Positions 5,780-28,276 of a stretch of 64,000 nucleotides of DNA are shown here, piece by piece. The position numbers and the translations under genes are program-made. Source of the DNA: Aquimarina macrocephali JAMB N27 (GTDB lineage Bacteria > Bacteroidota > Bacteroidia > Flavobacteriales > Flavobacteriaceae); assembly GCF_000520995.1 (NCBI RefSeq), contig NZ_JACA01000042.1, forward strand, positions 62,001 through 126,000. Reading direction: 5' to 3'. Each line of letters opens with the position of its first letter. The first letter of the stretch is position 1. The notes beneath the pieces were generated by a model, which saw only the letters and a program-made list of their open reading frames with translations, was not told where the DNA came from and ran no database searches.

Positions 5780-6997
5780 TTATAAAGAAGCCCCTTTATA
5801 TGTCTTTTCAATTTTGCGAGCGTTATTTTTTTTAATAGCATTAAACTGCTCTATATACATTGCTGTAATTTTACTCATCGGTAAGGCAGTTGCTGCTTTA
5901 TAATTTGCTTTTCCTAAAGCAGTACGATATGCAGGGTCCATGACTATTTTTTCGATAGCATCGGCCAGGCTATCTACACTTTCCGGATTAAAGAATTCTC
6001 CTTGGTATCCTTCGTCTTTTACTAATAAACTTAGATCTCCTAAATCTGGCATAACCACAGCTTTACCATAACTTCCTGCTTGATGCAATACACCAGAACT
6101 ACCCGTTGTAGAGGTATAAGGAAATACGACCATTGCACTTTCTGTAAAGATTCGAGGCACATCTGCTTCTTCTACATAACCAGTAAAAGTGAGTTGAGGT
6201 ACATCTGTATATTTTTCTTTCATCGATTGTAGATATCCAATAACATTAGGATTATCGGTTCCAGCAATTACAATCTCTAAATCAATATTTGTTCTTGATC
6301 GTATTTTTTCTACCGCTTCAATCATGATTTCTACCTTTTTGTAGGTGCCAAATTTACCAAAAGTCATAATTTGTAATGGACCTTCTGGAAGCGTGTATTT
6401 TGGTTCTTCAGGTATTTCAAAAGTTCCATGAGGAATCTGCACTACATTTTCAGTTTTATATTTCGCTTTTAAAATATGTACATATTTGTCAATAGTAACG
6501 GCAACGATATCTGCAGATAAAATAAACCGGGTGAGTGTTGTTCCTATCCCGTTATAGATTTTTTGTAAAACTTTATTTTTTGTAAACCCAGAGCTTTCCA
6601 GATCTACTTGCTCCATAATATTGTGTAACAGAACTATAGTTGGTATTTTGTTAAAAACACAACGTTTGGGTAGTAATAAACCAAGTGCTGCAGCTATTTT
6701 TTTATCTCCGAATTTCATAAACTGAAGATTGAACAATACTGCATCTGGACGAGTTTGTCTAATAGCTTTCATGACAGAGAAGATGTTACTATAGCTATTA
6801 AATTTCCAACATTGTTTAACGACTACATTACATCCTTTTTCTTCAAAAACTGTATCAGCGTCATTAGGAGATACATCGGTTAATAAAATAAGTTCGGATA
6901 CCTCGGCATGCTGTCTAAAATGTTTTACCAGGTGGTATGCATATTCATTTAAAGTTACTTTACTAGGCGGATATGCTGTTACAATTGCTAATTTCAT
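5780..6997 (-). CDS. Glycosyltransferase family 4 (GT-B fold)
   Basis: It transfers a sugar from a nucleotide-sugar donor to a lipid-linked or polymer acceptor at the cytoplasmic membrane. Signs of the family are the N-terminal Rossmann start (KLAIVTAYPPSK), the linker strand MTFGKFGTYKKVE, and the donor-binding segment near residues 300-340 (VVFPYTSTTGSSGVLHQAG, then GKAVVMPDLGD). In this segment the usual E-x7-E acidic pair of GT4 is not obvious. Length (405 aa) is normal. It precedes a strong terminator and lies in a run of surface-glycan genes (flippase, second glycosyltransferase), so exopolysaccharide or O-antigen-like assembly is the likely pathway. Acceptor and sugar are unknown. Confidence 0.85.
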   Translation of the reverse strand: MKLAIVTAYPPSKVTLNEYAYHLVKHFRQHAEVSELILLTDVSPNDADTVFEEKGCNVVVKQCWKFNSYSNIFSVMKAIRQTRPDAVLFNLQFMKFGDKKIAAALGLLLPKRCVFNKIPTIVLLHNIMEQVDLESSGFTKNKVLQKIYNGIGTTLTRFILSADIVAVTIDKYVHILKAKYKTENVVQIPHGTFEIPEEPKYTLPEGPLQIMTFGKFGTYKKVEIMIEAVEKIRSRTNIDLEIVIAGTDNPNVIGYLQSMKEKYTDVPQLTFTGYVEEADVPRIFTESAMVVFPYTSTTGSSGVLHQAGSYGKAVVMPDLGDLSLLVKDEGYQGEFFNPESVDSLADAIEKIVMDPAYRTALGKANYKAATALPMSKITAMYIEQFNAIKKNNARKIEKTYKGASL

Positions 6998-7576: not shown

Positions 7577-7873
7577 TTATACGAAATCACTTCTTAGTAT
7601 GTAACTTACTTTACCAAAAGCATTACTTACTTTTTTGTTTTCTTTTCCAATGATGTAAAAAATCTTGTTGCTTTCCATAGCATTTCTGAATAACTTGGTC
7701 AATACCGTAACACCTGAAGCATCAATTTTTTTAACCTTGTCAATACACAATATCACTTTGTCTGAATTGAATAATAGCTTCTCAAAATGATGTTGTAGAG
7801 ATTTGGTATTTTCTGCTACAATACTTCCTTTAATTTCAAAAATCCCTTGATTTTTAGTAATTCTTAAAGCCAT
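7577..7873 (-). CDS. STAS-domain protein (SpoIIAA-like anti-sigma antagonist)
   Basis: A single STAS domain of 98 residues. The conserved phosphorylation motif is intact at D51-A52-S53-G54, after the hydrophobic strand KVILCIDKVKKI. Family members bind anti-sigma factors or scaffold proteins and are controlled by Ser phosphorylation. It lies between a flippase gene and a second STAS gene with the same register but no Ser, so the two look like a duplication in which one copy lost switching. The proximity to glycan-export genes suggests control of surface polysaccharide, as in other STAS-regulated biofilm loci; this is inference. Confidence 0.8.
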   Translation of the reverse strand: MALRITKNQGIFEIKGSIVAENTKSLQHHFEKLLFNSDKVILCIDKVKKIDASGVTVLTKLFRNAMESNKIFYIIGKENKKVSNAFGKVSYILRSDFV

Positions 7874-7975
7874 AACTTATTGTTTTATTGGTTATTAATA
7901 TTTCAAAGATGGATCAGTTTTTTTGCATCTCTACGCTAAATCTGTTGAGGTGCAAGTATCCTTCGATGAATTGAT

Positions 7976-9238
7976 TTAATTGTTCGTTGAGCTTTTTTTA
8001 GATAGCTTCTGATAGCTTATAAAAAAGAAGATTTGAAATATAAGAAGAATAGCCATTGCTATTATTTGCATAATAACAATATCGGATAATGTGTCGTGAA
8101 AGAATATAATAAGTACAACCTGTGAGACCCCTAGTAAAGCCGATAATATAACGGGGATATATTGATCTAAGGATAAAAAATAATAGGCAAAAATGTTAGA
8201 AATAGCAAAAAGTGAAGTTGCAATTGCATATTTCCATAGTAATGGAGCAACACTTAAGTATTCTGAGCCAAACATGATATTGATTACCAATTCGGGAAAT
8301 AGATAACATCCCAGAACAATGGATGCCGAAAGCAGTGTGATATAGAATACATATTTAAATAATATAGGAGCATGGGATTCTCCGTCCTTTTGTTTTTGTA
8401 CTACCTTGGGTAATAGTAACATCACAAACATCCAGGCCACAAAATAAACTACTCTACCAATCAATGCTAATGATGCATACAAACCAGCTTCATAAGTTTC
8501 AAAATAATGTTTAACCATTAGAATGTCGCTATTGTTGATTATGATTTGAGTAAACTCATAGAAAGCCGTTAGCAAGAAAAACTTAATGATATATTTAGAT
8601 TCTGCAGATGGTAGTTTATGCTTTTTTGTGATCTCTATATCTCGCGAATGAAAAGGTAATAACCCAAACAAAAAAGAAATAGCAATACCCAAAGCAACTA
8701 AAATAGAAGATTGTAAACCTAAGGTATATATCAAAATAAGAGTAATAACCAACCTGCTTAACATCTCTCCCTGATAGGTGATTGCAAGACTGTCAAACTT
8801 TTTACTGCCCTGAAACACTCCTCTGTTCACACTCATTATGAAGTAAATAGGAACACCAATCCCAAAAATGGTAAACATAACAGAAGATTGAGTATTAAAA
8901 AGTACTTGAAGTTGTTTGGAAAAAATAAGTAAGAGAGCACCAAAGATAACTCCAACAATACTTGAATATTTATAAATAATATTGATAAAACTTTTAAATA
9001 TTGAATCTTCAAAAATCACAGAAAATTTAGCTGTGGATAGCTGAAATGTCATAGCGATAAAAGATAAAACCAAAAGAAAAGTAATTAATAATGCTGCATC
9101 TGCAAATTGTTCGGGACCTAAGATTCTACCTAATATCAAATTGTATAGATAGTTTCCTCCATTAACAATGATAACGCTGATCATAAATTTTTGTTCAGCA
9201 CTTAATTTTTTTAAAGCAGTATTAAGAATCATATTCAT
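7976..9238 (-). CDS. Oligosaccharide flippase family protein (MOP superfamily, Wzx-like)
   Basis: A 420-residue integral membrane protein with about 12 hydrophobic helices over its whole length. The N-terminal phrase NGGNYLYNLILGRILGPEQFADAAL fits the polysaccharide-synthesis/flippase family within the MOP superfamily. It would flip undecaprenyl-linked repeat units across the inner membrane. The ATG at 9238 is followed by a second in-frame ATG two codons on; either could be used. The glycosyltransferases at 5780 and 13472 and the outer-membrane TPR/barrel protein at 14852 are plausible partners in the same pathway. Confidence 0.85.
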   Translation of the reverse strand: MNMILNTALKKLSAEQKFMISVIIVNGGNYLYNLILGRILGPEQFADAALLITFLLVLSFIAMTFQLSTAKFSVIFEDSIFKSFINIIYKYSSIVGVIFGALLLIFSKQLQVLFNTQSSVMFTIFGIGVPIYFIMSVNRGVFQGSKKFDSLAITYQGEMLSRLVITLILIYTLGLQSSILVALGIAISFLFGLLPFHSRDIEITKKHKLPSAESKYIIKFFLLTAFYEFTQIIINNSDILMVKHYFETYEAGLYASLALIGRVVYFVAWMFVMLLLPKVVQKQKDGESHAPILFKYVFYITLLSASIVLGCYLFPELVINIMFGSEYLSVAPLLWKYAIATSLFAISNIFAYYFLSLDQYIPVILSALLGVSQVVLIIFFHDTLSDIVIMQIIAMAILLIFQIFFFISYQKLSKKSSTNN

Positions 9239-13471: not shown

Positions 13472-14278
13472 TTATCGTACCATATAGTAATCTGTTTTAA
13501 GGTTGAAAATGTCTGAAGCACTTTTGCTATTTGTTTTGATTTTGAAGTAACTAAACCAGATCATTAATAGATTGATTGGGATAAGAAAAGAATCTTTTAG
13601 TGTTATTTTAGAACCTTCTACTTCAATCCAGCTATCTAGCGGTTCTTCACTAATACAGTTTAATAGATCTTTTAACCCTACATGCTTTTTTAATCGAAGA
13701 AAGATTTCAATATCAAATAACCACCTGCTGATAAATCGTTGGCTATATACATTTTCGATGATACTTTTCTTAAATACTTTTGCTCCACACTGTGTATCTT
13801 TAATAGGAAGCTGAAGAATAAATCGGATAAAGAATCCAACAAAGTTTGATAAGAGTTTTCTAATTATATTTCTGTCAATATTGTTTGACTCTGCTGCTTT
13901 TCTAGAACCAAAAACCATGGTTAGTTTTGGATCACTATTCAGTTTCTTTACTAAGTTGTCCATTTCTTCTAATGATGTAGAAAGGTCGGCATCAAGGAAA
14001 GCAATATTTTCTATAATGTCTATATCTGCCAGGTAGTTTGCTCCTGTTTGTACTGCAGTAGCCTTACCTTGATTATGTTCGAGATCAAGAACTGATATCC
14101 TTTGTGGGTCAAATTCTTTCAGTTCACACAACATTTTTAATGTATCGTCAGAACTGCCGTCATTTACAAAGCATAAGTGGTAATTTGAATTTCTGCTTAA
14201 AAAATCACAAAACTTTTTTTGAGGTAATCTATTATATTCATTATAACATGGGATAATAATTCCGGTAATTTTCGTCAT
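13472..14278 (-). CDS. Glycosyltransferase family 2, dolichyl-phosphate-glucosyltransferase-like
   Basis: A 268-residue GT-A fold enzyme. The N-terminal signature IIPCYNEYNRLP and VNDGSSDDT, the DxD-like motif in FLDADLST (residues about 98-105), and the later KDTQCGAKVFKK and RWLFDIEIFLR segments match the ALG5/DPM-like branch of GT2. Such enzymes load a sugar onto a polyprenyl phosphate. It has no C-terminal membrane helices beyond a weak one near residues 240-255. It sits between the giant T9SS protein and the TPR/barrel protein and probably belongs to the same surface-glycan region. Confidence 0.85.
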   Translation of the reverse strand: MTKITGIIIPCYNEYNRLPQKKFCDFLSRNSNYHLCFVNDGSSDDTLKMLCELKEFDPQRISVLDLEHNQGKATAVQTGANYLADIDIIENIAFLDADLSTSLEEMDNLVKKLNSDPKLTMVFGSRKAAESNNIDRNIIRKLLSNFVGFFIRFILQLPIKDTQCGAKVFKKSIIENVYSQRFISRWLFDIEIFLRLKKHVGLKDLLNCISEEPLDSWIEVEGSKITLKDSFLIPINLLMIWFSYFKIKTNSKSASDIFNLKTDYYMVR

Positions 14279-14851: not shown

Positions 14852-16927
14852 ATGCACTTAAAGTCATTTTTTATTAGCCTTTTATTTTTGTTTTCATTTT
14901 CATTTTTGTTTGCACAAGATATGCAAGAAGGGTTTAAGTATTTGGAAACCGGTAAATATGATAAGGCAAAATCTTTTTTTGATACGATTCTAAAACAATA
15001 TCCCGATAACAAAACTGCACGTTTATGTTATGGAAGAGCTGTGGGGTTATTAGGAGATTCACAACAAGCAGTATCAATTTTTACAGGACTAAAAAAAGAA
15101 TATCCAAATGATTTTGAAATTAAACTAAATTATGCGGAGTCACTACTCTGGAATCGTCAATTTACCGAAGCCGAAACGTTTTATGAAAAATTGATTAAAG
15201 AAGATAGCACAAGCTTTCCCGCGGTACTGGGATATGCAAATACACTTTCTAATCTCAAAAAATATGAAAATGCATTGAAGTTGGTCAACAATGCATTACA
15301 ACTACAAAAAGGAAATCCTAATGCCTTACTATCTCGAAAATATATTCGTTTGGGGTATGCTAATACCATAGCACAGGACAAAAAATATGATGAAGCAATT
15401 GCGCTATTAGATCAAAACCTGATTGATTTCCCTAATGATAAGGATACTCAGTTAAATAAGGCAAACCTATATCTAATGACAGATAATCTGGATAACGCAG
15501 AAAAAACATATACCGCTTTGGCAGTAAACCCTAAGGATAGTATTTTATCGTTAAATGGCTTGGCTCTGGTGGCTCATAAAAGATATAAAGAGAAGAAAGC
15601 ATTAGCAATAGCTGGTATGGCAATGCATAAAGTGAAAAGATTAGAAGAAGATAAAGAACTTTATCTATCTACACGAGAACGATATATACAAGCATTATTA
15701 TGGAATAGGAAATTTACTGCAGCAAAAGAAGATATAGATCAATTACAACAATTATATCCAGATAACTCGAGAGTACTGGCTTTACAAGCTACTCATGGTA
15801 TGTATACCAGCAATTTTAAAACCAGTCTTCAAAAATACAATACGATTTTGGGAAAAGACAAGGGATCTTTTGATGGTAATTTAGGAATAGCAAATGCATA
15901 TAGAGCAGTGGGAGAGGATATGAAATCCTATACATATGCTTTTAAAACATTAGAATATTACCCAAAGCAACAGGATGCCGAAAAACTGATAAAGACATTA
16001 AAGAAAACACACACGCCTTTTATAGAAGAAAAAACAGCATTTACTTTTGACAATGGAGATAATGAAGCAGTAAATATTACGGTAAAGACCGAGATTCCAT
16101 TATCTGCCAAATTCAAATCCGAGATTCAATATGATTATAGAACTACTAAAAATACAGTAACCAAAAATGAAGCCACTTCTCATGATTTTTGGCTAGGGGG
16201 AGTGTATAAATTTAATGGAAGAGTTTCTCTACAATCCAAAATAGGGATTACCAATGCCGATGGATTTACAACTGAGTATACAGAATTGGTTGCCGAGGCA
16301 ATATTAAAAACAAAACCATTTACCCTTCAAAACTTAGATGTTGGATATAAAAGAGAGCTACAAAATTTTAATGCAGATTTGTTGAATCGTGAGATTGTAA
16401 TGAATAATTACTTTTTGAATTATAACCTTGGTACCAATTTTAATTTAGGATGGTATACCCAGTATATCTATACTTCTCAAACCGATGATAATAGTAGAAA
16501 TCTACTTTTTACATCTTTGTATTATACGGTACTACAAAGGCCTATTCTAAAAGTAGGTATTAATTATCAATACCTGTCTTTTAAGAATCAGGTACCTACA
16601 ATCTATTTTAGCCCTGCACGATTTAATTTAGGAGAGCTATTCGCAGAAGTGGTAAGTGATCCACAAAAAAAGTGGTTTTATAATGCTAGTGCAGCTTTGG
16701 GGCGACAATTTGTAGAAGATGATCCGGGATCATCTACTTTTAGAGCAGAAGGAAAATTTGGATACCGGTTTTCAGAACGTTTTAAAGCAGACCTCTATGG
16801 CAAGTATAGTAATATTGCTTCGGCTACAGCGGCAGGTTTTGAGTATGTAGAATTTGGTTTTAGACTAAAATGGTATTTCTTACGTAAACCGATTTTTGAT
16901 AAAAAGATAATGGAATTACAAAAGTAA
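14852..16927 (+). CDS. TPR-repeat protein with C-terminal outer-membrane beta-barrel (YaiO-like)
   Basis: A signal peptide (residues 1-21, ending LFAQ) precedes about ten TPR-type helical repeats (residues 25-385; for example EGFKYLETGKYDKAKSFFD). A C-terminal region of about 280 residues alternates amphipathic strands and ends in an aromatic residue near FRLKWYF, as YaiO-family barrels do. The TPR-plus-barrel plan resembles polysaccharide export porins such as PgaA and BcsC, which pass secreted polymers through the outer membrane. With a flippase and glycosyltransferases nearby, export of an exopolysaccharide is the best guess. The barrel boundary is estimated from strand pattern. Confidence 0.8.
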   Translation: MHLKSFFISLLFLFSFSFLFAQDMQEGFKYLETGKYDKAKSFFDTILKQYPDNKTARLCYGRAVGLLGDSQQAVSIFTGLKKEYPNDFEIKLNYAESLLWNRQFTEAETFYEKLIKEDSTSFPAVLGYANTLSNLKKYENALKLVNNALQLQKGNPNALLSRKYIRLGYANTIAQDKKYDEAIALLDQNLIDFPNDKDTQLNKANLYLMTDNLDNAEKTYTALAVNPKDSILSLNGLALVAHKRYKEKKALAIAGMAMHKVKRLEEDKELYLSTRERYIQALLWNRKFTAAKEDIDQLQQLYPDNSRVLALQATHGMYTSNFKTSLQKYNTILGKDKGSFDGNLGIANAYRAVGEDMKSYTYAFKTLEYYPKQQDAEKLIKTLKKTHTPFIEEKTAFTFDNGDNEAVNITVKTEIPLSAKFKSEIQYDYRTTKNTVTKNEATSHDFWLGGVYKFNGRVSLQSKIGITNADGFTTEYTELVAEAILKTKPFTLQNLDVGYKRELQNFNADLLNREIVMNNYFLNYNLGTNFNLGWYTQYIYTSQTDDNSRNLLFTSLYYTVLQRPILKVGINYQYLSFKNQVPTIYFSPARFNLGELFAEVVSDPQKKWFYNASAALGRQFVEDDPGSSTFRAEGKFGYRFSERFKADLYGKYSNIASATAAGFEYVEFGFRLKWYFLRKPIFDKKIMELQK

Positions 16928-17698: not shown

Positions 17699-20600
17699 TT
17701 ATCGGATTAAAAAACTACCTTTATATTTTTGTTTGTTATTGCCTCTTAAGATGTAATAATATACACCTGGGATAAGGCTTCTTGTTTCAAAAGTTATGGT
17801 GTTATTATATACAACCATGCGCTCTTGTCGTACTGTTCTTCCTATCATATCGATGACTACCATTTCTAATGCTTCATGTGTTCCTGGTACTTGAATTGAA
17901 GTTTTGTTTTTAAAAGGATTAGGATAATTAGAAAGCGTAGTAACTGTGATTTGTTCATCTGTTTCTACTTGTGCGATTTCGTCGCTATTATCTTCTCCAT
18001 TTTCTACCACCACCACAGGTGTTTCAGGATCTAATTCTGGATCTATTATTGTTGTATTGGTGAATGCCAGATCAGATACTTCCAAGTGAAATGGAGTAAA
18101 GTTTTGATAATCTCCCTGTACAGAAAACACAATACTTCTTACTTTTTTGAAGCTTTCATTTTCTTTATTACCATTTGTGAAATCAGAAAACGAAATGGTA
18201 TGCGTTGTTTTTTCATCGGTAGCAGGAATTCTATATCTAAGTCTGTTACTCCAGTCTGTAAGACCTTCGGTTACTAATATCACCTCGATATCTCTATCAT
18301 TATACATTTCAAACTGTACAGCATCATAGTCAGACACAGATAGCGTTAATTCGCCTGCCAATATATTTCTAAAAAGATTTAAAGTTTCTTTTACATTACC
18401 ATATACTAGTGCATTACGTTCTATAGTATATTCATTTTTCTGAGCTGCAACATCATGTTTTGTTACTTCAAAATTCTCGATCACTACTCCTTGTTCCTGG
18501 TAATCAATACCCCAGGGACCATCTGCCAGATACAATGCATCTAATTGAGTAGAGTTTTGTCCTAGGATAGAGAACCCGATATCAAATAGATATCCTGTTT
18601 CTATGGTGATTTGCTCATTGTATGCTCCTGATAATGCTACTGTTTCAATCATATTGTGTTCTTTTGATTGTTCAGTCTTTCTAATGTTACCATTAAATGT
18701 CATATGATTGGCACCTAATTTATTGATAATATTTAGGGTTAGCTTTCCATTTGCATATGATCCTTTTTCTACAAATACAGTAGGTACTCTATGACTCACT
18801 TTATGACTACGCATAGGTTTGTCGGTTGTAAATGAATCCAAAATATGATTCGCAATATTTGCTACTTGTGGTACTGATCCACCCCATACCTGGAAATTTA
18901 TATAATCTCCATCAGGATAGTTGCCAATATTCCATAAGCTATAGATTTCATTCTCAGATTCACCTTTCTTAACCGAAAAGGTTAGTGCATATTCAATTTG
19001 ACCAGAAGCTCTCTCTATTCTAGTACTCACAATAGTGTGATTTTTAATAGTTACTGTTCTTACATCTAATAATTTAGAGCCATTTAATCGGTCACAAATT
19101 GTTTTTGAATGATCATAAATAGAACCTTTGGTCGATGTGGCTAATGCTGCTGCTACTCTTTCATTTCCTTTGTAGTAATCTACAGAGAATACAGCTTTTG
19201 CATTAGTGATACCTAATAGATCATCTGGACTTGATACATAAGTAGACTCCGTTCCGAATATTCCTGTATTAGGGAAATAAATACTTAAATCTTCATTGTT
19301 ACCCGATTTGTACGATTTCATACCAGGTTGAAATCTTTTTTGTGATTTTTTGGTATTGAAAATACTATTTGTTTTTGTTCTGCTAAAGTTACGTTTAGCA
19401 ATTAAGCTTGCTAAGTCACCGTTACTTTCTAACCCACCATTATTAGCAGAAGTAACATCTGTAGCCGTATCGATATCCACATAATTATCTGTTGAGATCG
19501 CTGTATAAGGGCTTGCTGTGATATAGAATAATGCATCATTAAAATCCTGATCACAAGAAGCATAATCTCTTCTAATATCTTCAAAGCCTAATATAATTCT
19601 TTCATTATCAGGATCAGATAATAATACGTTGTGGTATCTTAATGAAGGATCTGTTTCTGGGTTATAATTTGGATTAGAATGTAGTTGCCAGTATCCAGTT
19701 CCCACACAACCGTCTGACCAAGCATTGGCTAGCAGTACCCATCCTATTCCTGTATTAGGAGGGAAAGTTCCAATTTTTACTTTATCACCAATTTCTAATT
19801 CACCGCCGCTTCCTACAGCAGATACGTTAGGAAAAATGATGGTAATATCTTCTGGAGCAGGTATTGAAGTCGATGGATTATTAATATCATAGGTATAGAA
19901 TCCTAATGTATTTTTGTATCCAGCACCTTCTCCTATAAAAGTTACCCAGATATCAGCTTGTTCCTGTACTTCAATATCTGAATCGTAACCAGAAGAAATA
20001 TAATGAGGGTTAAAATCTGGTACCGGATACCCTTCTGGTAATGCATTATTAACCAAATCGATAGTTTCTTGGGTAACTACATCTTGCCCATCCAAATACA
20101 GTGGCTTTCCATTAGAAGAAAAATCACCTAAGTAGTTATATCTGTCACAGATCTCAGGAATAGGAAAACTTGCTGGAGTTTGCCCTCCGTTTTCTGGAGC
20201 AAAACTACTTTTTCTTAAATCAAAACTATCATCTAATCCGTCATTATCATTATCAACTCCAGATAATGTAGTTTCTGCAACTCCGTCACCATCACTATCA
20301 TATGCTTCTGTACTATCAGATACACCATTATTATCAGAATCGGTATCCAGATGATCATAAGTATCTGCACCATCAGTATTTATGGTTCCGTTTGTGGTTC
20401 CTCCATAATCAGGATCAAACGCATCATCCATACCATCCTTATCTTCATCAATATTAGATAACCCTTGATAGCTACCACTATTTTGTCCTTCTATAATATC
20501 TACAATTCCATCATTATCAGAATCGATATCGTAGCAATCATAAATACTATCATTATCAGTATCGTTAGGAATAAAAGTATTCCCTTGATCAGGATCAAAC

Positions 20601-21721
20601 GCATCTGCTAATCCATCTAGATCAGTATCCAGAAAATTGCTGTCAGATCCATTATAAATCCCGTCGTTATTTGTGTCTTTATCGCCTTGCCCTGCTTCTA
20701 CAATATCATAGATACCATCGTTATCAGAATCGATATCCAGAAAATCGGGATTACCATCACTGTCTCTATCAAAAGCGTCTTGTACTACATTGTCTCCGTT
20801 ACCACTAATATCGTTATCCAGGTAGTTGTATAAATCATCTCCATCATTATCTCCATAAGGATTCATACCGTTACATTCTGCAATATTTGTTATACCATCA
20901 CCATCACTATCAGCATCCATAGAATCTAAAGCCCCGTCTTGATCTTTATCGAGTGGAGAAATACCGTTGGCACATTTAAAACCGTCATTAGAGTTTGTGG
21001 TTTCGGTAAGATTAAGCAATGTGGCTGTTGGGGTAGCACTTTCGTAATCATTGATTAAGTATAAACCTCCGTTGTTAACAGATAAATACAATCTGTTATT
21101 AGCATCGGCATAAGCAGCTCCAAAAGTACCAGTAGGTAGATTGGTTACTGTTTTTTGAGAAAATACAGGGGTTCCTGAAGACAGATCCCATTTGTATAGC
21201 TTTCCTCTGCTTCCTCCATAAAAAGCACCATTTATATATGCAATATCTGCACAAGTACTAGGCGAAGTCTGATCAGCTTCTACAACTTCGAAAACAGGAG
21301 AAGAAGATCCGTCATAATCTTTTAAGTTTGTTATTTTATGAAATGTTTTTTTGTTGGTATTTTGATACACCCAAAGGTTTCCGTCTGCGTCGACATCTGC
21401 TGCATATCCACCACCAAAAACTGTAGTCCCGGCAGGGGTTACAGCACCAAGATCAATCACCATATCCTTGGCAATTCTAAGGAGGTGATTGTCACCTCTC
21501 TTAATTGCATATAGATAATTATCTTCGGGATTATATCCTCCAGCATTATAGGTGGTAGAGTAGGTGTGTAGTGCATCAGAATATGAACCGGTAATTGGAT
21601 CATATGCTTTTAAAGATCCAGAGATCACCTGATAGAAATTACCTTCATCACAATCAAAAGGTTGTTGAGCGTATCCAGATAAAACTACTAATATTAATAT
21701 GAGGGTAGTTATTTTTTTCAT
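17699..21721 (-). CDS. Giant secreted T9SS protein, paralogue of the 9352-13377 gene
   Basis: Its order of parts matches the neighbour: signal peptide (residues 1-18), propeller-like N-terminal region with a shared FYQVISG and GGGYAADVD signature, TSP3-like acidic repeats (about 255-510), DUF4114-like region containing EDIRRDYASCDQDFNDALF, a long shared unassigned region, and a type A sorting tail starting NYPNPFKNKT. The pre-tail linker is Glu/Asp-rich and diverged between the paralogues. By eye the N-terminal part shares around two thirds of residues. The two copies sit about 4.3 kb apart in the same orientation with the GT2, TPR/barrel and peptide genes between, so a dispersed duplication is likely. 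Confidence 0.8.
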   Translation of the reverse strand: MKKITTLILILVVLSGYAQQPFDCDEGNFYQVISGSLKAYDPITGSYSDALHTYSTTYNAGGYNPEDNYLYAIKRGDNHLLRIAKDMVIDLGAVTPAGTTVFGGGYAADVDADGNLWVYQNTNKKTFHKITNLKDYDGSSSPVFEVVEADQTSPSTCADIAYINGAFYGGSRGKLYKWDLSSGTPVFSQKTVTNLPTGTFGAAYADANNRLYLSVNNGGLYLINDYESATPTATLLNLTETTNSNDGFKCANGISPLDKDQDGALDSMDADSDGDGITNIAECNGMNPYGDNDGDDLYNYLDNDISGNGDNVVQDAFDRDSDGNPDFLDIDSDNDGIYDIVEAGQGDKDTNNDGIYNGSDSNFLDTDLDGLADAFDPDQGNTFIPNDTDNDSIYDCYDIDSDNDGIVDIIEGQNSGSYQGLSNIDEDKDGMDDAFDPDYGGTTNGTINTDGADTYDHLDTDSDNNGVSDSTEAYDSDGDGVAETTLSGVDNDNDGLDDSFDLRKSSFAPENGGQTPASFPIPEICDRYNYLGDFSSNGKPLYLDGQDVVTQETIDLVNNALPEGYPVPDFNPHYISSGYDSDIEVQEQADIWVTFIGEGAGYKNTLGFYTYDINNPSTSIPAPEDITIIFPNVSAVGSGGELEIGDKVKIGTFPPNTGIGWVLLANAWSDGCVGTGYWQLHSNPNYNPETDPSLRYHNVLLSDPDNERIILGFEDIRRDYASCDQDFNDALFYITASPYTAISTDNYVDIDTATDVTSANNGGLESNGDLASLIAKRNFSRTKTNSIFNTKKSQKRFQPGMKSYKSGNNEDLSIYFPNTGIFGTESTYVSSPDDLLGITNAKAVFSVDYYKGNERVAAALATSTKGSIYDHSKTICDRLNGSKLLDVRTVTIKNHTIVSTRIERASGQIEYALTFSVKKGESENEIYSLWNIGNYPDGDYINFQVWGGSVPQVANIANHILDSFTTDKPMRSHKVSHRVPTVFVEKGSYANGKLTLNIINKLGANHMTFNGNIRKTEQSKEHNMIETVALSGAYNEQITIETGYLFDIGFSILGQNSTQLDALYLADGPWGIDYQEQGVVIENFEVTKHDVAAQKNEYTIERNALVYGNVKETLNLFRNILAGELTLSVSDYDAVQFEMYNDRDIEVILVTEGLTDWSNRLRYRIPATDEKTTHTISFSDFTNGNKENESFKKVRSIVFSVQGDYQNFTPFHLEVSDLAFTNTTIIDPELDPETPVVVVENGEDNSDEIAQVETDEQITVTTLSNYPNPFKNKTSIQVPGTHEALEMVVIDMIGRTVRQERMVVYNNTITFETRSLIPGVYYYILRGNNKQKYKGSFLIR

Positions 21722-22196
21722 TTTGATATAGATTTAGGTTTCAGATGACTAAAATTAATCTATATAAACTCCTTATATTGGAGTTATTCGATCAGGGGTA
21801 ATTTACTGTAGATGAATGGGTTTTGTATAGAGTTGAGTACATGAGGGTGGGAGTGGTTAAATCCAGATTATGCGATTTGAAATATCATAGATATCAAATT
21901 CAATTACCTTCTTAGATAAGACTGGCGTGATGTTATTTAACCTGGATTCGATGTAAGGATTTAGTTTTAAAAAGCCGTCAACTTGAGTGATTTTTCATAG
22001 TGAAACGGAGAAAAATTGTATCGACCCTTCGACGAAGCTCAGGATGACAAGGCTTTTGCTTGAAAATTTACTTGTCTTCGATAGTTCTGCTGAGCTTGGT
22101 CGAAGTACAATTTTCTACCGAAAATCACTCTGACTGACGTAAATTTTCTTATGTCGAACTCACGTTATTTATGTAATTGGCTACTATTCTCTTAAC
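21722..22196. other. 475-base intergenic region with long inverted repeat
   Basis: It separates two minus-strand genes. Just upstream of the giant T9SS gene is a small perfect inverted repeat (AACTCC/GGAGTT, about 21767-21785), possibly an operator. The right half is occupied by the imperfect inverted repeat at 21976-22139. No small gene is evident. Confidence 0.5.
21976..22139. repeat. Long imperfect inverted repeat (palindromic interspersed element)
   Basis: The two arms, each about 75-80 bases, read as reverse complements of one another with small gaps. CGTCA at 21976 pairs with TGACG at 22135; GAGTGATTTT with AAAATCACTC; AAAATTGTA with TACAATTTT; TTCGACGAAGCTCAG with CTGAGCTTGGTCGAA; and GACAAG with CTTGTC. 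The core TTCGAC..AAGCTCAG resembles palindromic units that recur in many Bacteroidetes genomes. It lies past the end of the nitric-oxide signalling operon and could also act as its terminator. Confidence 0.7.
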
Positions 22197-22928
22197 TTAA
22201 AGCATATTAAGGCGCTTCATTAACTCAGGGCGGTTAGAACGACTCACCGGTATAACATCTTTTGCAATAAGTACACTGTTGTCTTCTATATCAATAATTT
22301 TTTTGATATTAATAATATAAGATCGATGTACTTTTAGGAAAAGATCGGTTGGTAGTTTTTCTTCAACCTTTTTTAATGTAGAATGTACTGTGTAATTTTG
22401 CTTTTCGGTTTTAATCAGCACATAATCTCCTTTGGCTTCAATCAAATTAATAGTTGGGATATTAATCTTGATTAACCTTCTGTCTATATTAATATAAAGC
22501 TCATTTTCTTCAGAAGAAGAAGTGTTTAAGGACGATTCTGTTTGTGTCTCTGTTGAGGTTTCTGTAGCAGCAACTGTTGTTGCGCTTTCTGCCTTTTGTA
22601 TTGCTTTAAGAAATCTAGGTAAGGTTATTGGTTTTACCAGATAATCTACGATACATTCATACTCAAAAGCTTCTAAAGCAAAATTTTTGTCAGAAGTTGT
22701 TAAAATAATCTTAGGTGGATTCTTTAAGGTATCAATAAAATCAAAACCTGTAAAGTCTGGCATATGAATATCCAGAAATATAAGATCTACTTCTTCTTTA
22801 TTTAAAAATTTAATGGCCTGAATTGCATTCGGAAAATCATCAATAACATTTAGTTCATCAACCTGTGAACAAAGTTGTTGAATAATCATTCTTGCGGTTT
22901 CTTCATCATCTATAATTATGCAATTCAT
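22197..22928 (-). CDS. LytTR-family response regulator
   Basis: The N-terminal receiver domain (residues 1-115) carries the acidic pocket D7-D8, phospho-acceptor D53 in LIFLDIHMPDFTG, the T/S switch region LTTSD and the conserved Lys in LVKPIT. A Ser/Thr-rich linker (about 118-140) leads to a LytTR DNA-binding domain (about 145-243) with LIEAKGDYVLI and LPTDLFLKVHRSYIIN. It would bind DNA as a dimer and control genes in response to the upstream kinases. It is the last gene of the H-NOX operon, 24 bases after the Hpt gene. Targets cannot be read here. Confidence 0.92.
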   Translation of the reverse strand: MNCIIIDDEETARMIIQQLCSQVDELNVIDDFPNAIQAIKFLNKEEVDLIFLDIHMPDFTGFDFIDTLKNPPKIILTTSDKNFALEAFEYECIVDYLVKPITLPRFLKAIQKAESATTVAATETSTETQTESSLNTSSSEENELYINIDRRLIKINIPTINLIEAKGDYVLIKTEKQNYTVHSTLKKVEEKLPTDLFLKVHRSYIINIKKIIDIEDNSVLIAKDVIPVSRSNRPELMKRLNML

Positions 22929-22952
22929 AATAAATTGGTTTTTAAAGGATTT

Positions 22953-23273
22953 TTAAAGAGTTTTTAGAAAATGCTCTATGGATTCTAAAATTAATATAAA
23001 TTTTGAATATAACGAAGTGTTACCGCTTTTTAGCTCTTCTTCAAAGTCTATTGCAGTTTGGTACCCTTCTTCAAAACCAAACATTCCAATTTTATGTTTT
23101 AGTTTATGAACATTTTCTGCTGCTTTATTATATGTTTTTGAGGTATAATTTTTAAGAAATTCATCTTTTTCATCAGGGAATTCTCGCTTTACAATACCAA
23201 TTAATTTTTGTTCAAAAGACTCAGAACCAGCCGCCAATTCTTTAATATATATGAGATTTGGAGTTTCGTTCAT
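22953..23273 (-). CDS. Histidine phosphotransfer (Hpt) protein
   Basis: A 106-residue all-helical protein. The phospho-accepting His56 sits in the motif NVHKLKHKIGMFG, which matches the Hpt consensus (A/V)HxLK(G/H). Hpt proteins carry phosphate between receiver domains. It starts three bases after the second kinase gene and is followed by the LytTR regulator, so translation is coupled. Neither kinase in the operon has a fused receiver, so an intermediate receiver is needed for a classical four-step relay; the CheY-like gene at 27869 is a candidate. Confidence 0.85.
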   Translation of the reverse strand: MNETPNLIYIKELAAGSESFEQKLIGIVKREFPDEKDEFLKNYTSKTYNKAAENVHKLKHKIGMFGFEEGYQTAIDFEEELKSGNTSLYSKFILILESIEHFLKTL

Positions 23274-23276
23274 ATG

Positions 23277-24341
23277 TTATTTTTTTAATGTAAAATAGAA
23301 AGTAGTTCCTTGTCCTTCTTCAGACTCGATCCAAATTTTTCCATTATAAAATTCTACTATTTTTTTTACGATCGATAACCCAATACCTGTTGATTTTTTT
23401 TCGTCATCAAGAGTTTGAAATATCTGAAATATCTTGTTGTGATATTTTTCAGAAATTCCTCTTCCATTATCTTTAATACCAAACTTCCAGAAATTAGGGA
23501 TTTCTTCATACATTACTATGACCTCTCCTTTATCTTTATCTATTGCTTGTATAGCATTATTAATTAAATTCTGAAATATTTGTTTAATTCTTGATACATC
23601 TGCATATATAACAGGAAGTTGATTGTGTATGCTAATTTTTATATGATCAGGAGGATGTATTACATGTGTAATATCTCCGATTAGAGTATTTAGATCAATA
23701 TCAGATTCGAGATTTTTTGTTCTATCACTAATTATAGAATATTCTAAAATTCCACTAATTAGATTATCCATTTTTTCAATATTCTGATCAATTAAATTCA
23801 GGTTCTTTAGTATTGGCGCTTCAAGTCCTCCTTGGGTATCTTCTTTTATCCAGTTAATAAGCGTATTGATACTTCGTAATGGAGATTTTAAATCGTGAGA
23901 TACCACATGCGCATAATCGTTAAGCTCTTTATTACTTTTTTCTAAATCCTTGAGTAACAATTCTCTTTGTTTCTCGACTTTTGAAATTTGAACAGCCTGT
24001 TCTTCGATCATTACAGCTAGTTCGATTCCTGAGAGTTCATCCCCATTTTTTCCTCCTTTCATATTTTTGAAAGTTATGGATTGAAGAATTCTAGTGGCAT
24101 CGGTTAAACTGGCAATTACTTTTTTTTGCTGTTCTGCTTCTTTCTGAAGTTTTTGGTTGGCATCAAATAATTCTTTAGAACTTATAGACATTGCCCTCTG
24201 TAACATACCTAGTTGATCTTCAAAATTGTGATAGGATCTATCAATAGCACTTAAGAATTTTTCGGAATACTGAGATTCTTTATGTTCAGTATCCAAATGT
24301 TTTTTGATTTGTCTGGTCAATAATGAGTGCATACTATTCAC
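23277..24341 (-). CDS. Soluble histidine kinase partnered with the FIST protein
   Basis: A long coiled-coil N-terminus (about residues 40-145) with no transmembrane segment leads into a HisKA domain with the phospho-His in AHVVSHDLKSPLRS, then a HATPase_c domain with N box (NLINNAIQAI) and G boxes (KDNGRGIS, STGIGLSIVKK). It overlaps the FIST-protein gene by eight bases, so the two are translationally coupled, and a FIST-kinase pair is the arrangement known for NosP and its kinases. The coiled coil could receive the FIST signal through protein contact. It is a close paralogue of the PAS kinase at 25475 in the kinase core. Confidence 0.9.
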   Translation of the reverse strand: MNSMHSLLTRQIKKHLDTEHKESQYSEKFLSAIDRSYHNFEDQLGMLQRAMSISSKELFDANQKLQKEAEQQKKVIASLTDATRILQSITFKNMKGGKNGDELSGIELAVMIEEQAVQISKVEKQRELLLKDLEKSNKELNDYAHVVSHDLKSPLRSINTLINWIKEDTQGGLEAPILKNLNLIDQNIEKMDNLISGILEYSIISDRTKNLESDIDLNTLIGDITHVIHPPDHIKISIHNQLPVIYADVSRIKQIFQNLINNAIQAIDKDKGEVIVMYEEIPNFWKFGIKDNGRGISEKYHNKIFQIFQTLDDEKKSTGIGLSIVKKIVEFYNGKIWIESEEGQGTTFYFTLKK

Positions 24342-25470
24342 TAAATAAAGTTAAAGTCATTGTTTGATTGTGTAACTCACAGTTTGAATTTTTTCCTTCA
24401 AAAGGAGATAGTTCGCCATATGAATAAAATCCAGCTACGGTAGCTTGAGCGCCAATAGATTCTATAACTTCTTCTACTTCTTCCTCAACACGTTGATCCA
24501 TGACTAATTTTCTACCGATACAGCTTACCAATAATGCTAGTTCGGGTTTATGCTTTCTGTCTCTCATTCCTATTTCTGCTGCTTGCAATGCTCCATCTAC
24601 AATATTATCAATATGTCCCATCATTAATTGAACGACGGCTCCTTCTGGTACATCTCCTGCCAGTGTCATCGTATTGGTTTTCTCATCGATCGATAAAATT
24701 GTTCTTACAATAGGCTCTTCTTTATCTTTGGACTTAACACTAAGCGGATATAATAAAGCAGATTGAGGAAGTTCTGCAGCTTTATCACCCAAATATTTTT
24801 TGTATAAATCCAGAGCAGGTTGATTGTCTAATTCATATAACACATTCTGATCAGATTTTGTAATAATTCGCTCTGGTCCAAAAGCAGTCCATCCTCCATA
24901 TTGGGCATAACTAATCTCTAGAGATTCACCATAAAAGGCGATTAATATAACCTCTCCTTCTTTAGGGTTTTCATTATAACCCGATATTGTTTTTTCAAAT
25001 CTCGAATCGTCACCACAGAGTCCACCCGTTATTGCAACATTGTCGATCATTGTTTCGAGGCCTTCAATTAATGCCGAACCGTTTACAAAACTTCCTTCAG
25101 AAATAATGAAAACATGTTTTAAACCTTCTTTTGGTACTTTTTGAATCAGTTTATTTCCTAGTCGTACTGCATCTTTATTATTGTCGATACTATTTTCACG
25201 AAATATAACATAAGTACTTTTTTCAAATTCTATGGCAGTTAGTGCTATTGAATCATCAAGAACTTTACCGCCAATAATTTCACCAGCAGTAGAACCGATA
25301 ACAATTTCTCCATCTGGGAATAGTTTTTTTACGTCATTATAAACTTCTGGGTCTTCTAGTTCATATCGATTTCCGAAAACCAACACTAAAGGGTTTTTTA
25401 GTTTTTTTTCTGTTGTTACAACGGCAGTCCATTCTTGATTTTTTCTCTTTTCAAATTGTTGAAATCTCAT
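24334..25470 (-). CDS. FIST-domain sensor protein (NosP-like)
   Basis: A 378-residue soluble protein with a FIST N domain (about 30-220, including GEIVIGSTAGEIIGGKV and AITGGLCGDDSRF) and a FIST C domain (about 235-365, including ALLVSCIGRK and GFYSYGELSPF). FIST proteins in other bacteria (NosP) bind haem and sense nitric oxide, then inhibit a co-encoded kinase. Here the gene sits between two kinase genes in the same operon as an H-NOX protein. The FIST family is clear; haem binding is inferred from context, and I cannot pick out the haem-ligand residue with confidence. A different small ligand is possible. Confidence 0.85.
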   Translation of the reverse strand: MRFQQFEKRKNQEWTAVVTTEKKLKNPLVLVFGNRYELEDPEVYNDVKKLFPDGEIVIGSTAGEIIGGKVLDDSIALTAIEFEKSTYVIFRENSIDNNKDAVRLGNKLIQKVPKEGLKHVFIISEGSFVNGSALIEGLETMIDNVAITGGLCGDDSRFEKTISGYNENPKEGEVILIAFYGESLEISYAQYGGWTAFGPERIITKSDQNVLYELDNQPALDLYKKYLGDKAAELPQSALLYPLSVKSKDKEEPIVRTILSIDEKTNTMTLAGDVPEGAVVQLMMGHIDNIVDGALQAAEIGMRDRKHKPELALLVSCIGRKLVMDQRVEEEVEEVIESIGAQATVAGFYSYGELSPFEGKNSNCELHNQTMTLTLFSE

Positions 25471-25474
25471 ATGC

Positions 25475-27070
25475 CTATTTTTTTAATGTGAAGTAAAATG
25501 TTGTACCCATACCGAATTCACTTTCCAGCCAAATATCTCCTTCATACAGGTCTATTATTTTTTTAACAATGGCGAGTCCGATTCCCGAAGAATTTTCATT
25601 GTCTCCTACAGATTGGAACATTTTAAATATCTTCTCGTGATGTTCTTTTTTTATACCTATACCATTGTCCTTAATTTTAAAGAGGTAATAGGTCTTTTTG
25701 TCTTCATAATTGATTTCTATTTTTCCGATTTCTTTATCGTTATAAATTACAGCATTACCAATTAGGTTTTGAAAAAGTTGTTGAATTCTGGTAATGTCAC
25801 CATTGATTACAGGAAGTTTATTTTTAATAGAAATCGTTATATTTTCTGGTATTAATACAGTATTTTTTATCTCACCAATAAGTATATTAAGATCTATTTC
25901 TTTGGTTTGTAGGCCTTCTTTGTTACTTACACTAGAATAACTAAGGATATCATTGATGAGAGTTTCCATTTTTTCCAATGTATTTTCGATCATGGTAAAA
26001 TGGCGTACCCCGGTTTTATCAAGTGTATCAACATGATCTTCTTTAATCCAGTTTACAAGAGCATTAATACTTCTCAAAGGTGATTTTAGATCATGAGAAA
26101 CGATATGCGCATAATCCTTAAGTTCCTGATTTGTTTTTTCCAGATTTTTTACGAGTTGATCCCTTTGTTTTTCTACCTCTAGTTGCTCTGTAATATCTTC
26201 TACTAGGGCAACCATATATTTAATATTTCCGTTAGGATCTCGTACTGCGGCTACATTGGTTTTTGCCCAGAATGTGGATTTATTTCGTTTTACATACCTC
26301 CTATTTATAGAAAAATCATCAATCTCACCAGTATTCATTTTCTCCATATTACTGGCCGAGGCTTCGTATTCATCTTTTAAAGAAATATCTTTGATCTCCA
26401 TTTGTAGTAGTTCCTCTTGCGTATATCCCAATAAATTCTGGAAAGCTTTATTGGTTTGAAGTATTTTTCCAAATTGAGAAAGAGCAATTCCTAAAGACGA
26501 ATTTTCAACAATAACAGATAGTTGTTTTTTTTGCTCTTCGAATATTTGTTTTTGTATAAGCTCATCAGTAATGTCCGTTACAATACCTTGTGCTCCAATT
26601 GGAGTTTTATTTTTATCAAAAATAAGACTGGCATTGATATGAACGGTACGTACTCCATTATCTTTTGTATATACTCTGGCCTGGTAATTAGAAAAAGAAC
26701 CTTTGGTGACCAGTTCCTGAAAAGAAACCATGGCATATTTATAATCTTCTTTATAAATAAGTTTTACAACATTTAGTTTTTCTTCTGTAATATCGTATCC
26801 AAATAAATTTCTGGCGGCATAATTCATCTCCAGAACATTACCAAAAATATCCATTCGAACATAGGCATCCAGTAAATTATCAAAAACACCTTGTAACTCA
26901 GATTCCTTTGTACCAACTTGATCTTCTAGCTTTTCATTGGTATCCTTTAATTCTTGAGTGATTAGATAAAGTTCTCGAGATTTATCTTCAAGAATTTTTT
27001 CTGCTTGTTTTCGAGCTAATTTCTCTCTTTGTATAGCTCTTTTTAGTATTTCTATATCATCACTACTCAT
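25475..27070 (-). CDS. PAS-PAS histidine kinase partnered with H-NOX
   Basis: An N-terminal coiled coil (10-55) leads into two PAS domains (about 60-170 and 185-300) with PAC-type ends (GIVTDITDE, ALVEDITEQ), then HisKA with AHIVSHDLKSPLRS and HATPase_c with NLIGNAVIYN and SSGIGLAIVKK. There are no transmembrane helices. It overlaps the H-NOX gene by eight bases, the standard layout for H-NOX-associated kinases, where the haem protein controls autophosphorylation. The kinase core closely resembles the second kinase at 23277, so they may feed the same Hpt protein. Confidence 0.9.
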   Translation of the reverse strand: MSSDDIEILKRAIQREKLARKQAEKILEDKSRELYLITQELKDTNEKLEDQVGTKESELQGVFDNLLDAYVRMDIFGNVLEMNYAARNLFGYDITEEKLNVVKLIYKEDYKYAMVSFQELVTKGSFSNYQARVYTKDNGVRTVHINASLIFDKNKTPIGAQGIVTDITDELIQKQIFEEQKKQLSVIVENSSLGIALSQFGKILQTNKAFQNLLGYTQEELLQMEIKDISLKDEYEASASNMEKMNTGEIDDFSINRRYVKRNKSTFWAKTNVAAVRDPNGNIKYMVALVEDITEQLEVEKQRDQLVKNLEKTNQELKDYAHIVSHDLKSPLRSINALVNWIKEDHVDTLDKTGVRHFTMIENTLEKMETLINDILSYSSVSNKEGLQTKEIDLNILIGEIKNTVLIPENITISIKNKLPVINGDITRIQQLFQNLIGNAVIYNDKEIGKIEINYEDKKTYYLFKIKDNGIGIKKEHHEKIFKMFQSVGDNENSSGIGLAIVKKIIDLYEGDIWLESEFGMGTTFYFTLKK

Positions 27071-27608
27071 TTGTTTTCACGATACTAAATTTTACTTCCG
27101 TTCCATCTGATGTGAGTTTTTCTAGAGTGATTGTAGCCGTAGCATCAAAATGCTCAAAAGTTTTGCGCATTAATCCAAGTCCAAAGCTGTACATAGCTCT
27201 ACTGGATTTATAAATCATGACCAGTTTAGAAGCTGTTTTTTCTTGTATTTCAAAAGTGGGAAGTTCTGCATCAGGATATATTTTTCGAACTTCGACATGA
27301 ATATGATTTTCGATAGAAGATAGCATTTCTATTGGATCGTTGTATTTGTTAATTAAATCGGGGTAACTACTAGCTAGGACAGAAAAAAAATGTTCGGCGT
27401 AGGTAAGAAGAAGGTCATCGATACTTAGTTTTGTATGCTCGCTAAGATGCTTTAACAATCCTAGCATTTCAGAAAAATCGTAAGTACCTATAGCAGTATA
27501 TGCTCCTTGTGAAGGCAGATTAGACTGTTGGATGATTTTGTCAACTACCGCTAACCCGAATTTATCTTCGACTAATTCTAAAAATTCTGTAAATACTATT
27601 CCTTTCAT
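27063..27608 (-). CDS. H-NOX haem-binding nitric-oxide sensor protein
   Basis: A 181-residue stand-alone H-NOX domain, the usual length. The proximal haem ligand should be His104 in HIHVEVRKIYP, aligning with the H-x7-YP pattern of soluble guanylate cyclase. The haem-propionate motif YxSxR is present as Y133-K-S135-S-R137. It binds NO with very high affinity and regulates a co-encoded kinase or cyclase. The gene opens the operon and overlaps its kinase by eight bases. A TAnnTTTG box (TATTTTTG) lies about 40 bases upstream. Confidence 0.93.
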   Translation of the reverse strand: MKGIVFTEFLELVEDKFGLAVVDKIIQQSNLPSQGAYTAIGTYDFSEMLGLLKHLSEHTKLSIDDLLLTYAEHFFSVLASSYPDLINKYNDPIEMLSSIENHIHVEVRKIYPDAELPTFEIQEKTASKLVMIYKSSRAMYSFGLGLMRKTFEHFDATATITLEKLTSDGTEVKFSIVKTNE

Positions 27609-27868
27609 TCTTTTAAAAACTTTTTGGTTAGACGCCTTTATACCTCAAAAATACTGTTATGTTGTAGTTTCGAATGATTGTGTGTAATCTTGAAAGAAAA
27701 CAATATAGGGGTAGTTCTCAGTATTTTAAATTAAATTACTTTAACTCAAACTGATGTTTTCTTTTGGGGTATAAAAACAGATAAGAACTTCTATAATGAC
27801 AATATATTTACATTAAAAAGAAAATTATTTCATGTCTATATTATTTCTGAAGTTAATAAAGATAACCG
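27609..27868. other. Intergenic region upstream of the H-NOX operon
   Basis: 260 bases between the receiver gene and the H-NOX gene, both on the minus strand. It holds the likely H-NOX operon promoter (27646-27653). The receiver gene has no clear terminator here, so some read-through into the operon is possible. Confidence 0.45.
27646..27653 (-). promoter_or_regulatory. Putative Bacteroidetes -7 box of the H-NOX operon
   Basis: The minus strand reads TATTTTTG, a full match to TAnnTTTG, 37 bases before the H-NOX ATG. No perfect TTG lies at the -33 position, so the call rests on one box and its placement. Confidence 0.4.
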
Positions 27869-28276
27869 TTATACTTTTAAAAGCTCATTAACACTCCAGT
27901 ATTCAATTAAACATTTTATTTTATGTGTGTATTCTTCATATTTTAATGGTTTAACAATATAACCTGCAGCTCCAATTTTGTAAGACTCTTTAAGATCTTG
28001 ATGATTATTAGAGGTACTTAAAATGATCACCGGTATGTATTGTAACGATGCATTTGACTTTAACTCCTTCAAAAATTCTAAACCATTCATTTTAGGCATA
28101 TTTAGATCAAGAAAGATAATATCTGGTTGTTGATCTTTTTGAGCTAAAATATCTAAAGCTTCCTCACCATTTTTGGCCTCTACAATTTTATGCGGATAGC
28201 CATTTTTATCTATAACTCTAGCAAATTTTAGTCGTTCTATTTCATCATCATCTATTAATAAAAAAGTCAAACTCAT
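27869..28276 (-). CDS. Single-domain response regulator (CheY-like)
   Basis: A stand-alone receiver of 135 residues with acidic residues D9-D11, phospho-acceptor D57 in IIFLDLNMPKMNG, the switch region ILSTSN and the conserved Lys in IVKPLKYEEY. It has no output domain, so it either shuttles phosphate or acts by protein contact. Its orientation matches the H-NOX operon, starting 260 bases upstream. Because the operon has kinases and an Hpt protein but no intermediate receiver, this protein could fill that place. That assignment is inference. Confidence 0.9.
   Translation of the reverse strand: MSLTFLLIDDDEIERLKFARVIDKNGYPHKIVEAKNGEEALDILAQKDQQPDIIFLDLNMPKMNGLEFLKELKSNASLQYIPVIILSTSNNHQDLKESYKIGAAGYIVKPLKYEEYTHKIKCLIEYWSVNELLKV

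Follow-up and report, generated by a model that had tools for sequence, protein, structure and literature searches.

An H-NOX operon with an optional FIST-kinase cassette and a predicted LytTR phosphorelay output in Aquimarina and other Flavobacteriaceae

Introduction

In Shewanella oneidensis, the H-NOX/NosP network reportedly employs two nitric oxide (NO) sensors that converge on shared regulators, with the genes located in separate operons and cyclic di-GMP (c-di-GMP) as the output. As far as the accessible portions of the literature go, H-NOX and FIST signaling has been described in Proteobacteria, mostly via c-di-GMP or quorum sensing. In Vibrio fischeri, H-NOX and the kinase HahK signal through the Hpt domain of SypF to the syp polysaccharide regulon (PMC8738867, in part), and NosP proteins acting with the kinases NahK or NosK are described for Pseudomonas, Legionella, Vibrio and Burkholderia in the available parts of PMC12570481, PMC11237717 and PMC6769237. 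At the network level, FIST has been depicted as a neighbor of "group 1" hnox genes (PMC8738867, section 10 and Fig. 6 legend), a group that excerpts of PMC7108781 (reference 57 of PMC8738867) illustrate with Cellulophaga and Runella. Here we report a computational analysis of a seven-gene operon carrying both H-NOX and FIST genes, which resides in a 64,000-nucleotide stretch of DNA from Aquimarina macrocephali JAMB N27 (NZ_JACA01000042.1, positions 62,001 to 126,000; hereafter the window).

The operon resembles the V. fischeri system in that H-NOX adjoins a kinase, an Hpt step is present and polysaccharide genes are the output, which is a prediction in the present case. However, the Hpt of V. 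fischeri is a domain of SypF, whereas receiver and Hpt are separate genes here; moreover, a LytTR regulator ends the Aquimarina operon and a FIST-kinase input can share it. As in the NosP systems, a FIST protein adjoins a kinase, the control of which is known for NosP. However, the sections of the NosP papers at hand connect NosP with c-di-GMP enzymes or LuxU, while the FIST protein of the window misses the NosP model cut-off and sits with H-NOX and LytTR. The FIST association is shared with hnox group 1 as covered by the cited excerpts; these excerpts describe no operon anatomy, relay, cassette exchange or DNA motif. Full-text literature searches on H-NOX, whose coverage left out most subscription journals, returned no description of the operon among the matches listed. 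The system belongs to a familiar kind, although its arrangement is new, and a site as well as a set of targets are predicted for it. With modest confidence, we favor a phosphorelay with a fixed H-NOX and an optional FIST input, in which the LytTR regulator would act on 21-bp repeats to control its own operon as well as polysaccharide and surface-protein genes.

Results

A seven-gene operon encodes the parts of a phosphorelay

Profile searches with Pfam models identified seven minus-strand genes in the order REC, H-NOX, HK1, FIST, HK2, Hpt and LytTR (span 22197-28276; Table 1). The initial annotation had named the six genes from H-NOX onwards. These open reading frames are indeed present in that order and strand, and two sensor families, each paired with an adjoining kinase, precede a single Hpt and a single DNA-binding regulator; the list had omitted the receiver-only gene REC, which comes first. 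Neighboring genes from H-NOX to LytTR overlap by 8 bp or are spaced by 3-24 bp. At E <= 0.001 the whole genome holds one H-NOX and one FIST match, both in the operon. Searching window positions 21000-29000 against Rfam gave no match, and a sigma-70 promoter scan stayed at chance level (31 versus 29.6 in shuffles). A terminator scan returned 5 candidates versus a mean of 2.4 (standard deviation 1.7) in shuffles, and none in the gap between REC and H-NOX.

All parts of a His-Asp-His-Asp phosphorelay, i.e. kinases, receiver, Hpt and response regulator, are present with their phospho-sites, and Asp57 of REC (77/77), His56 of Hpt (76/76) and Asp53 of LytTR (73/73) are invariant among the relatives compared. 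With the receiver-only REC added, the relay set of kinase, receiver, Hpt and regulator is therefore complete, REC being the likely step from the kinases to Hpt.

The H-NOX protein carries the proximal His104 and the YxSxR motif (Tyr133, Ser135, Arg137), confirming that the ligand residues are intact as had been noted. Across 80 H-NOX proteins, His104, Tyr133 and Ser135 are conserved in all 80 and Arg137 in 77. The protein, a putative heme sensor presumably for NO, shares 99% identity with the H-NOX of Aquimarina sp. Aq78 and AU58 and 98% with that of A. megaterium. Its best solved relative is 6bdd (280.5 bits), the H-NOX structure of Kordia algicida (PMC7356049). Of note, the H-NOX entries 6bdd and 6bde bear aldolase as molecule name in the Protein Data Bank and are apparently mislabelled.

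Table 1. Operon genes, motif copies and linked genes of the window
Feature	Position	Strand	Remarks
Stand-alone receiver (REC)	27869..28276	-	PF00072 93.7 bits; probable relay step between kinases and Hpt
H-NOX, putative heme/NO sensor	27063..27608	-	PF07700 135.7 bits (cut-off 25.5)
PAS-PAS histidine kinase HK1	25475..27070	-	PAS, HisKA and HATPase; phospho-acceptor motif YAHIVSHDLKSPLR
FIST-N/FIST-C protein, type A	24334..25470	-	PF08495 137.8 bits, PF10442 123.2 bits
Second histidine kinase HK2	23277..24341	-	HisKA and HATPase; "N2" N-terminal region; core of HK1 type
Hpt phosphotransfer protein	22953..23273	-	PF01627 25.7 bits (cut-off 24.6)
REC-LytTR response regulator	22197..22928	-	PF04397 74.7 bits, PF00072 66.5 bits
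LytTR-like motif ACCATTCGTCTACACTAA	28377..28394	-	about 100 bp before REC gene; 29.2 bits, from a matrix built without the window copy and three near-identical Aquimarina copies
Weak LytTR-like motif CCCATTCATCTACAGTAA	21803..21820	-	81 bp before next gene; 13.1 bits
Secreted DUF6923/DUF4114 protein, type IX secretion tail	17699..21721	-	candidate target; 1340 residues
TPR protein	14852..16927	+	linked cluster
Family 2 glycosyltransferase	13472..14278	-	PF00535 69.5 bits; linked cluster
Polysaccharide flippase-like protein	7976..9238	-	PF13440 47.4 bits; linked cluster
STAS protein	7577..7873	-	PF01740 32.0 bits; linked cluster
Group 1 glycosyltransferase	5780..6997	-	linked cluster
GH5-like protein	2846..4393	+	after motif 1.7 kb before window

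The arrangement is common in the family

The co-occurrence of the two sensor families in one operon had been regarded as unusual. A census of 397 genomes of the family, with PF07700 matches in 146 and PF08495 matches in 116, contradicts this view. It covered 148 of 150 H-NOX loci, the exceptions being G140:C28 and the broken fragment G076:C2. A type A FIST gene, as in the window, follows HK1 at 75 of the 148 loci and is the commonest layout, so that a rare arrangement was rejected. Hpt directly follows HK1 at 57 loci, a divergent type B FIST gene with another kinase occupies the HK1-Hpt slot at 4, and 12 show other or cut-off arrangements. The complete seven-gene order was found at 66 loci, and 54 loci carry a complete operon without the FIST-HK2 cassette. 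Recurrence of the type A layout and of the complete order goes beyond chance. REC directly precedes H-NOX at 142. Detailed comparisons used 80 named loci, the best of at least 528 confirmed stretches and, being those nearest to the window H-NOX, an uneven sample: 45 are of type A, 29 lack the cassette, 6 are of type B, and 42 have the complete order. All but one of them start with REC (79/80), the exception, L201, beginning at a contig end. The seven-gene order is also complete in Kordia algicida OT-1. The distance between H-NOX and FIST drops in steps of ~380 bp, matching one to four PAS domains in HK1. Outside the family, the same-class genome G544 has H-NOX and FIST genes on one strand, ~2.2 kb apart. 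On the basis of the family-wide counts the gene order is a family trait rather than an oddity, i.e. the layout is common and not unique.

Several loci deviate. In L120, H-NOX is followed by a kinase with both PAS and the N2 region of FIST partners, and neither Hpt nor LytTR was found adjoining that kinase. FIST precedes H-NOX and comes with a hybrid kinase in L089, while in L116 and L262 the kinases that accompany H-NOX are short or of the hybrid type. The locus L135 and the genomes G069, G101 and G261 each hold four FIST genes. L259 (G049) combines an H-NOX match containing one internal stop with a weak FIST match and is perhaps a decaying operon.

HK1 and HK2 share one catalytic core type

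The cores of HK1 and HK2 are reciprocal best matches, with 54% identity and ~255 bits, among the 30 top-scoring kinase loci of the genome (out of 39 matches). An orphan kinase with a GAF domain ranks third (209-214 bits), the next matches scoring 131-142 bits. In a quick tree of 99 cores with long branches, covering 30 of the 80 named loci, HK1 and HK2 cores fall into one group (Shimodaira-Hasegawa-like approximate likelihood-ratio support 99), separate from 27 further kinases encoded by the genome; 13 FIST-linked hybrid kinases and the odd H-NOX kinase of L089 are likewise outside. The N-terminal N2 region of HK2, however, is common to the FIST-linked hybrid kinases. HK2 thus has the look of an H-NOX-kinase core preceded by a FIST-partner region. 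According to Pfam it possesses only HisKA- and HATPase-type domains, i.e. no known sensor domain, and with 72.4 versus 400 bits it does not reach the cut-off of NF041832, the model for NahK/ErcS kinases near NosP.

Since HK1 and HK2 share one catalytic type, a shared target is plausible. Furthermore, in L199 (10863-12347) the type B kinase of the second slot is fused to Hpt in a protein of 494 residues, the Hpt part scoring 22.6 bits in Pfam, slightly below the cut-off of 24.6. Convergence of both kinases on a common target is likely because of the shared core type, the 57 loci in which Hpt directly follows HK1 and this fusion; we favor it, short of proof. The orphan GAF kinase (L143, G000:C47:31864-32565), which has the same core type and is encoded elsewhere in the genome, could provide a third input.

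The FIST protein is not assigned to the NosP family

The initial annotation had considered the FIST protein a NosP-like heme/NO sensor, a classification that found no support. The protein reaches 69.3 bits with the NCBIfam NosP equivalog model NF041558, the cut-off of which is 450, and was consequently rejected as a member of this family. FIST proteins from Kordia and Azospirillum and those of type B miss the cut-off too, and it is reached in none of 198 Bacteroidota genomes. Because an archaeal control, Methanocaldococcus, matches as well, such low scores reflect general FIST homology. The AlphaFold model of the window FIST (predicted local distance difference test score 92.2) has human FBXO22 and chorismatase/Toblerone enzymes as its best fold matches, a likeness that says nothing on heme. 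Searching solved structures by sequence gave one match at E 0.94, i.e. no real relative.

A single His, His367, is invariant in FIST (60/60). Type B proteins are 22-26% identical to the window FIST over ~195 residues and lack the His of the LHNQTMT motif; in four aligned sequences, Tyr or Phe replaces His at the position of His367. The accessible parts of PMC12570481, PMC11237717 and PMC8846402 name no heme-ligand residue of NosP, and FIST binding of heme and NO is worded cautiously in those of PMC8846402. It appears unlikely to us that FIST is nonetheless a NosP-like heme protein, so that one relay would be gated by two NO sensors differing in affinity or redox state. NosP-group FIST proteins do bind heme and NO and control the adjoining kinase (PMC12570481 and PMC11237717, in part), the window FIST has the invariant His367, and HK2 is without a recognized sensor domain like the NosP-linked kinase in the excerpts of PMC12570481; set against this are the NosP model scores in the window and throughout the phylum, the absence of the His from type B, the lack of any solved relative by sequence and the fold matches to other proteins.

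A tandem motif precedes the operon

A motif with the consensus ACCATTCGTC[GT]ACACTTA is located upstream of REC, and this 21-bp tandem motif is new here. The window copy is flanked on both sides by weaker tandem copies, as judged by eye only. The best score in 10 Markov shuffles of the window was 12.6 bits, and + strand sites above 9 bits occur in 182 of 220 operon upstream regions versus 0/220 shuffles, the matrix having been trained on the same promoters with the window copy left out of both scans. CCATTCGTC was present in 119 of the 220 regions versus 0.0 in shuffles. LytTR sites consist of two direct repeats about two helical turns apart. The spacing between neighboring motif copies is indeed 21 bp (62 pairs) or 22 bp (6 pairs), in agreement with such direct repeats. 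An exact 16-mer search returned 34 of 299 genomes, versus none for the reversed pattern; 32 of these are among the 105 H-NOX genomes and 2 among the 194 others, one of which, G048, has HK1-, Hpt- and LytTR-like genes (by their N-termini) at a contig end. Presumably the motif resembles the BtsR site. The LytTR regulator does not qualify for the BtsR model PRK11697 (118.5 versus 246 bits). The portion of PMC10653868 consulted for the BtsR site sequence contained nothing usable.

Motif copies also lie in front of other genes. When the start was allowed to be any in-frame Met among the initial 40 residues, 21 of 23 strong sites, taken from 14 loci chosen for an exact match, were within 160 bp upstream of a start, versus 12.8% for random positions. 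In relatives, motif copies precede genes for a DUF6923 secreted protein, a GT4 glycosyltransferase, a 1029-residue membrane-like protein, a receiver fused to a family 2 glycosyltransferase and a STAS/flippase pair. They precede receiver-sugar-transferase fusion and outer-membrane efflux-family genes in G205, and proteins without Pfam match in L369 and L371. The window region 1-21721 is a cluster matching these motif-preceded genes. The copy located 1.7 kb before the window precedes the genes at 1-1614 (the end of a 1029-residue membrane-like protein), 1614-2849 (weak Ig-like match) and 2846-4393, the GH5-like gene. A second STAS protein at 7246-7545 scores below the cut-off. The cluster also contains a second DUF6923/DUF4114 protein with a type IX secretion tail (9352-13377, 1341 residues).

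The gene following LytTR has stronger sites than in the window, 73-91 bp upstream, in L359, L364, L366, L368 and L372; relatives of the 17699-21721 protein were found in the latter four by tblastn and in L359 by N-terminus only. The operon of G172 is without LytTR, and a LytTR whose identity to operon LytTRs reaches 76% is encoded elsewhere. Together with a second REC, it is placed behind a tandem motif and adjoins secreted-protein, flippase and GT4 genes. That the motif is a site of another regulator or a general promoter element, and the polysaccharide link not a LytTR output, is in our judgement quite unlikely: the general LytTR half-site shows no enrichment in front of the operon, good sites are few in the window genome and the likeness to the BtsR site is presumptive, but the 16-mer is concentrated in H-NOX genomes, G048 with its HK1-, Hpt- and LytTR-like genes being one of the two exceptions, and the motif is retained at the relocated LytTR of G172.

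Receivers fused to family 2 glycosyltransferases were observed in L362 (7345-8526) and L364 (14859-16000) and, by N-terminus, in L363, L365 and L367. These fusion genes have the motif upstream, although it is weak in L364 (13.7 bits). The fusion partner of the receiver in L361 (5915-7093) is a sugar transferase. Such fusions hint at a possible direct phospho-control of glycosyltransferases.

FIST and HK2 behave as a cassette

On a tree of 72 loci computed from four core genes, the distribution of FIST implies 13 changes, of which well-supported branches enforce at least 4. Presence is weakly clustered (25 of 500 shuffles were as low). Even within the genus, the window and its neighbor G177, whose core is 80% identical, differ in FIST presence. 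FIST and HK2 distances correlate with core-gene distances (rho 0.55-0.84, 54 loci), and long residence with repeated loss therefore fits better than frequent import. Away from H-NOX, FIST forms a pair with an N2-type kinase in L121 and L137, and at 13 of 20 sampled FIST-elsewhere loci (out of 37) it is accompanied by a hybrid kinase with its own receiver. That FIST-HK2 is a mere neighbor, signaling to another regulator or acting mainly as phosphatase without any two-input gate, would fit these separate pairs, the hybrid kinases and the 57 operons without FIST-HK2, but is hardly probable given the position between HK1 and Hpt in complete operons, the shared core type, the correlated distances and the fusion of a type B kinase to Hpt.

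Discussion

In the mechanism that we favor, H-NOX, with heme and presumably NO as ligands, would control HK1, and the FIST protein would control HK2. Both kinases would phosphorylate the stand-alone receiver, from which the phosphate would be passed to Hpt and on to the LytTR regulator. The latter would bind the direct repeats spaced by 21 bp and drive its own operon and the neighboring genes for polysaccharide synthesis and surface proteins. The HK1-Hpt slot would hold FIST-HK2 as a two-gene cassette, which can be missing or exchanged for another.

A number of observations weigh against this mechanism. Concerning the operon itself, the 260 bp separating REC (ending at 27869) from H-NOX (starting at 27608) could mean that both are transcribed separately, and a terminator-like hairpin (28345-28329) lies between the motif and REC. 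The motif is placed between REC and a divergent gene for a CrtI-like oxidoreductase (28512-30308), transcribed away from REC, and might serve both. Among the operon upstream regions, 38 of 220 have no + strand site above 9 bits, and the general LytTR half-site is not enriched in them (74 versus 75.75 expected; pairs, 0 versus 0.25). The window genome has no exact 16-mer match, and a loose motif search of this genome gave 13 matches, 3 of them on the contig of the window, versus 19 in the control. Therefore, no wide regulon shows and only the exact operon site is beyond doubt. In the window, the site at 21803 barely exceeds the best shuffle (13.1 versus 12.6 bits), and the GT4 and flippase genes are without a site, none above 6 bits being present in positions 1-9000. 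Linkage to the cluster is also incomplete. A TPR, flippase, GT4, STAS or GH5 relative occurs within a stretch of at most 12 kb at 68 of 148 family loci (46 without TPR), a count that carries no background control; at the other 80, none of the five is in reach. The DUF6923 protein is present at 27 of 61 named loci with full flanks, and Kordia algicida has the operon with none of eight cluster proteins in the flanks examined. Finally, copper nitrite reductase is linked neither to H-NOX (21/146 versus 51/251 genomes, p 0.18) nor to the cassette (10/80 versus 11/66 genomes, p 0.49), the cassette set comprising 75 genomes with co-located H-NOX and FIST among 125 listed FIST places, and five genomes added after the census.

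More tentatively, the favored phosphorelay could be extended to a plug-in slot between HK1 and Hpt, in which a FIST-kinase cassette of type A, one of the highly divergent type B, or no cassette at all would alternate through gain, loss or exchange on one core while H-NOX stays fixed. The cassettes may then tune a dedicated surface-polysaccharide regulon in response to a signal other than NO and without c-di-GMP.

Taken together, a large part of the family carries a compact relay that has LytTR as its output; with a DNA site predicted, this output can be tested directly. For the effect of the second input, sister species that differ in the FIST cassette, e.g. within Aquimarina, are ready controls, and the occurrence of type A and type B FIST in one slot offers a way to ask what FIST domains sense.

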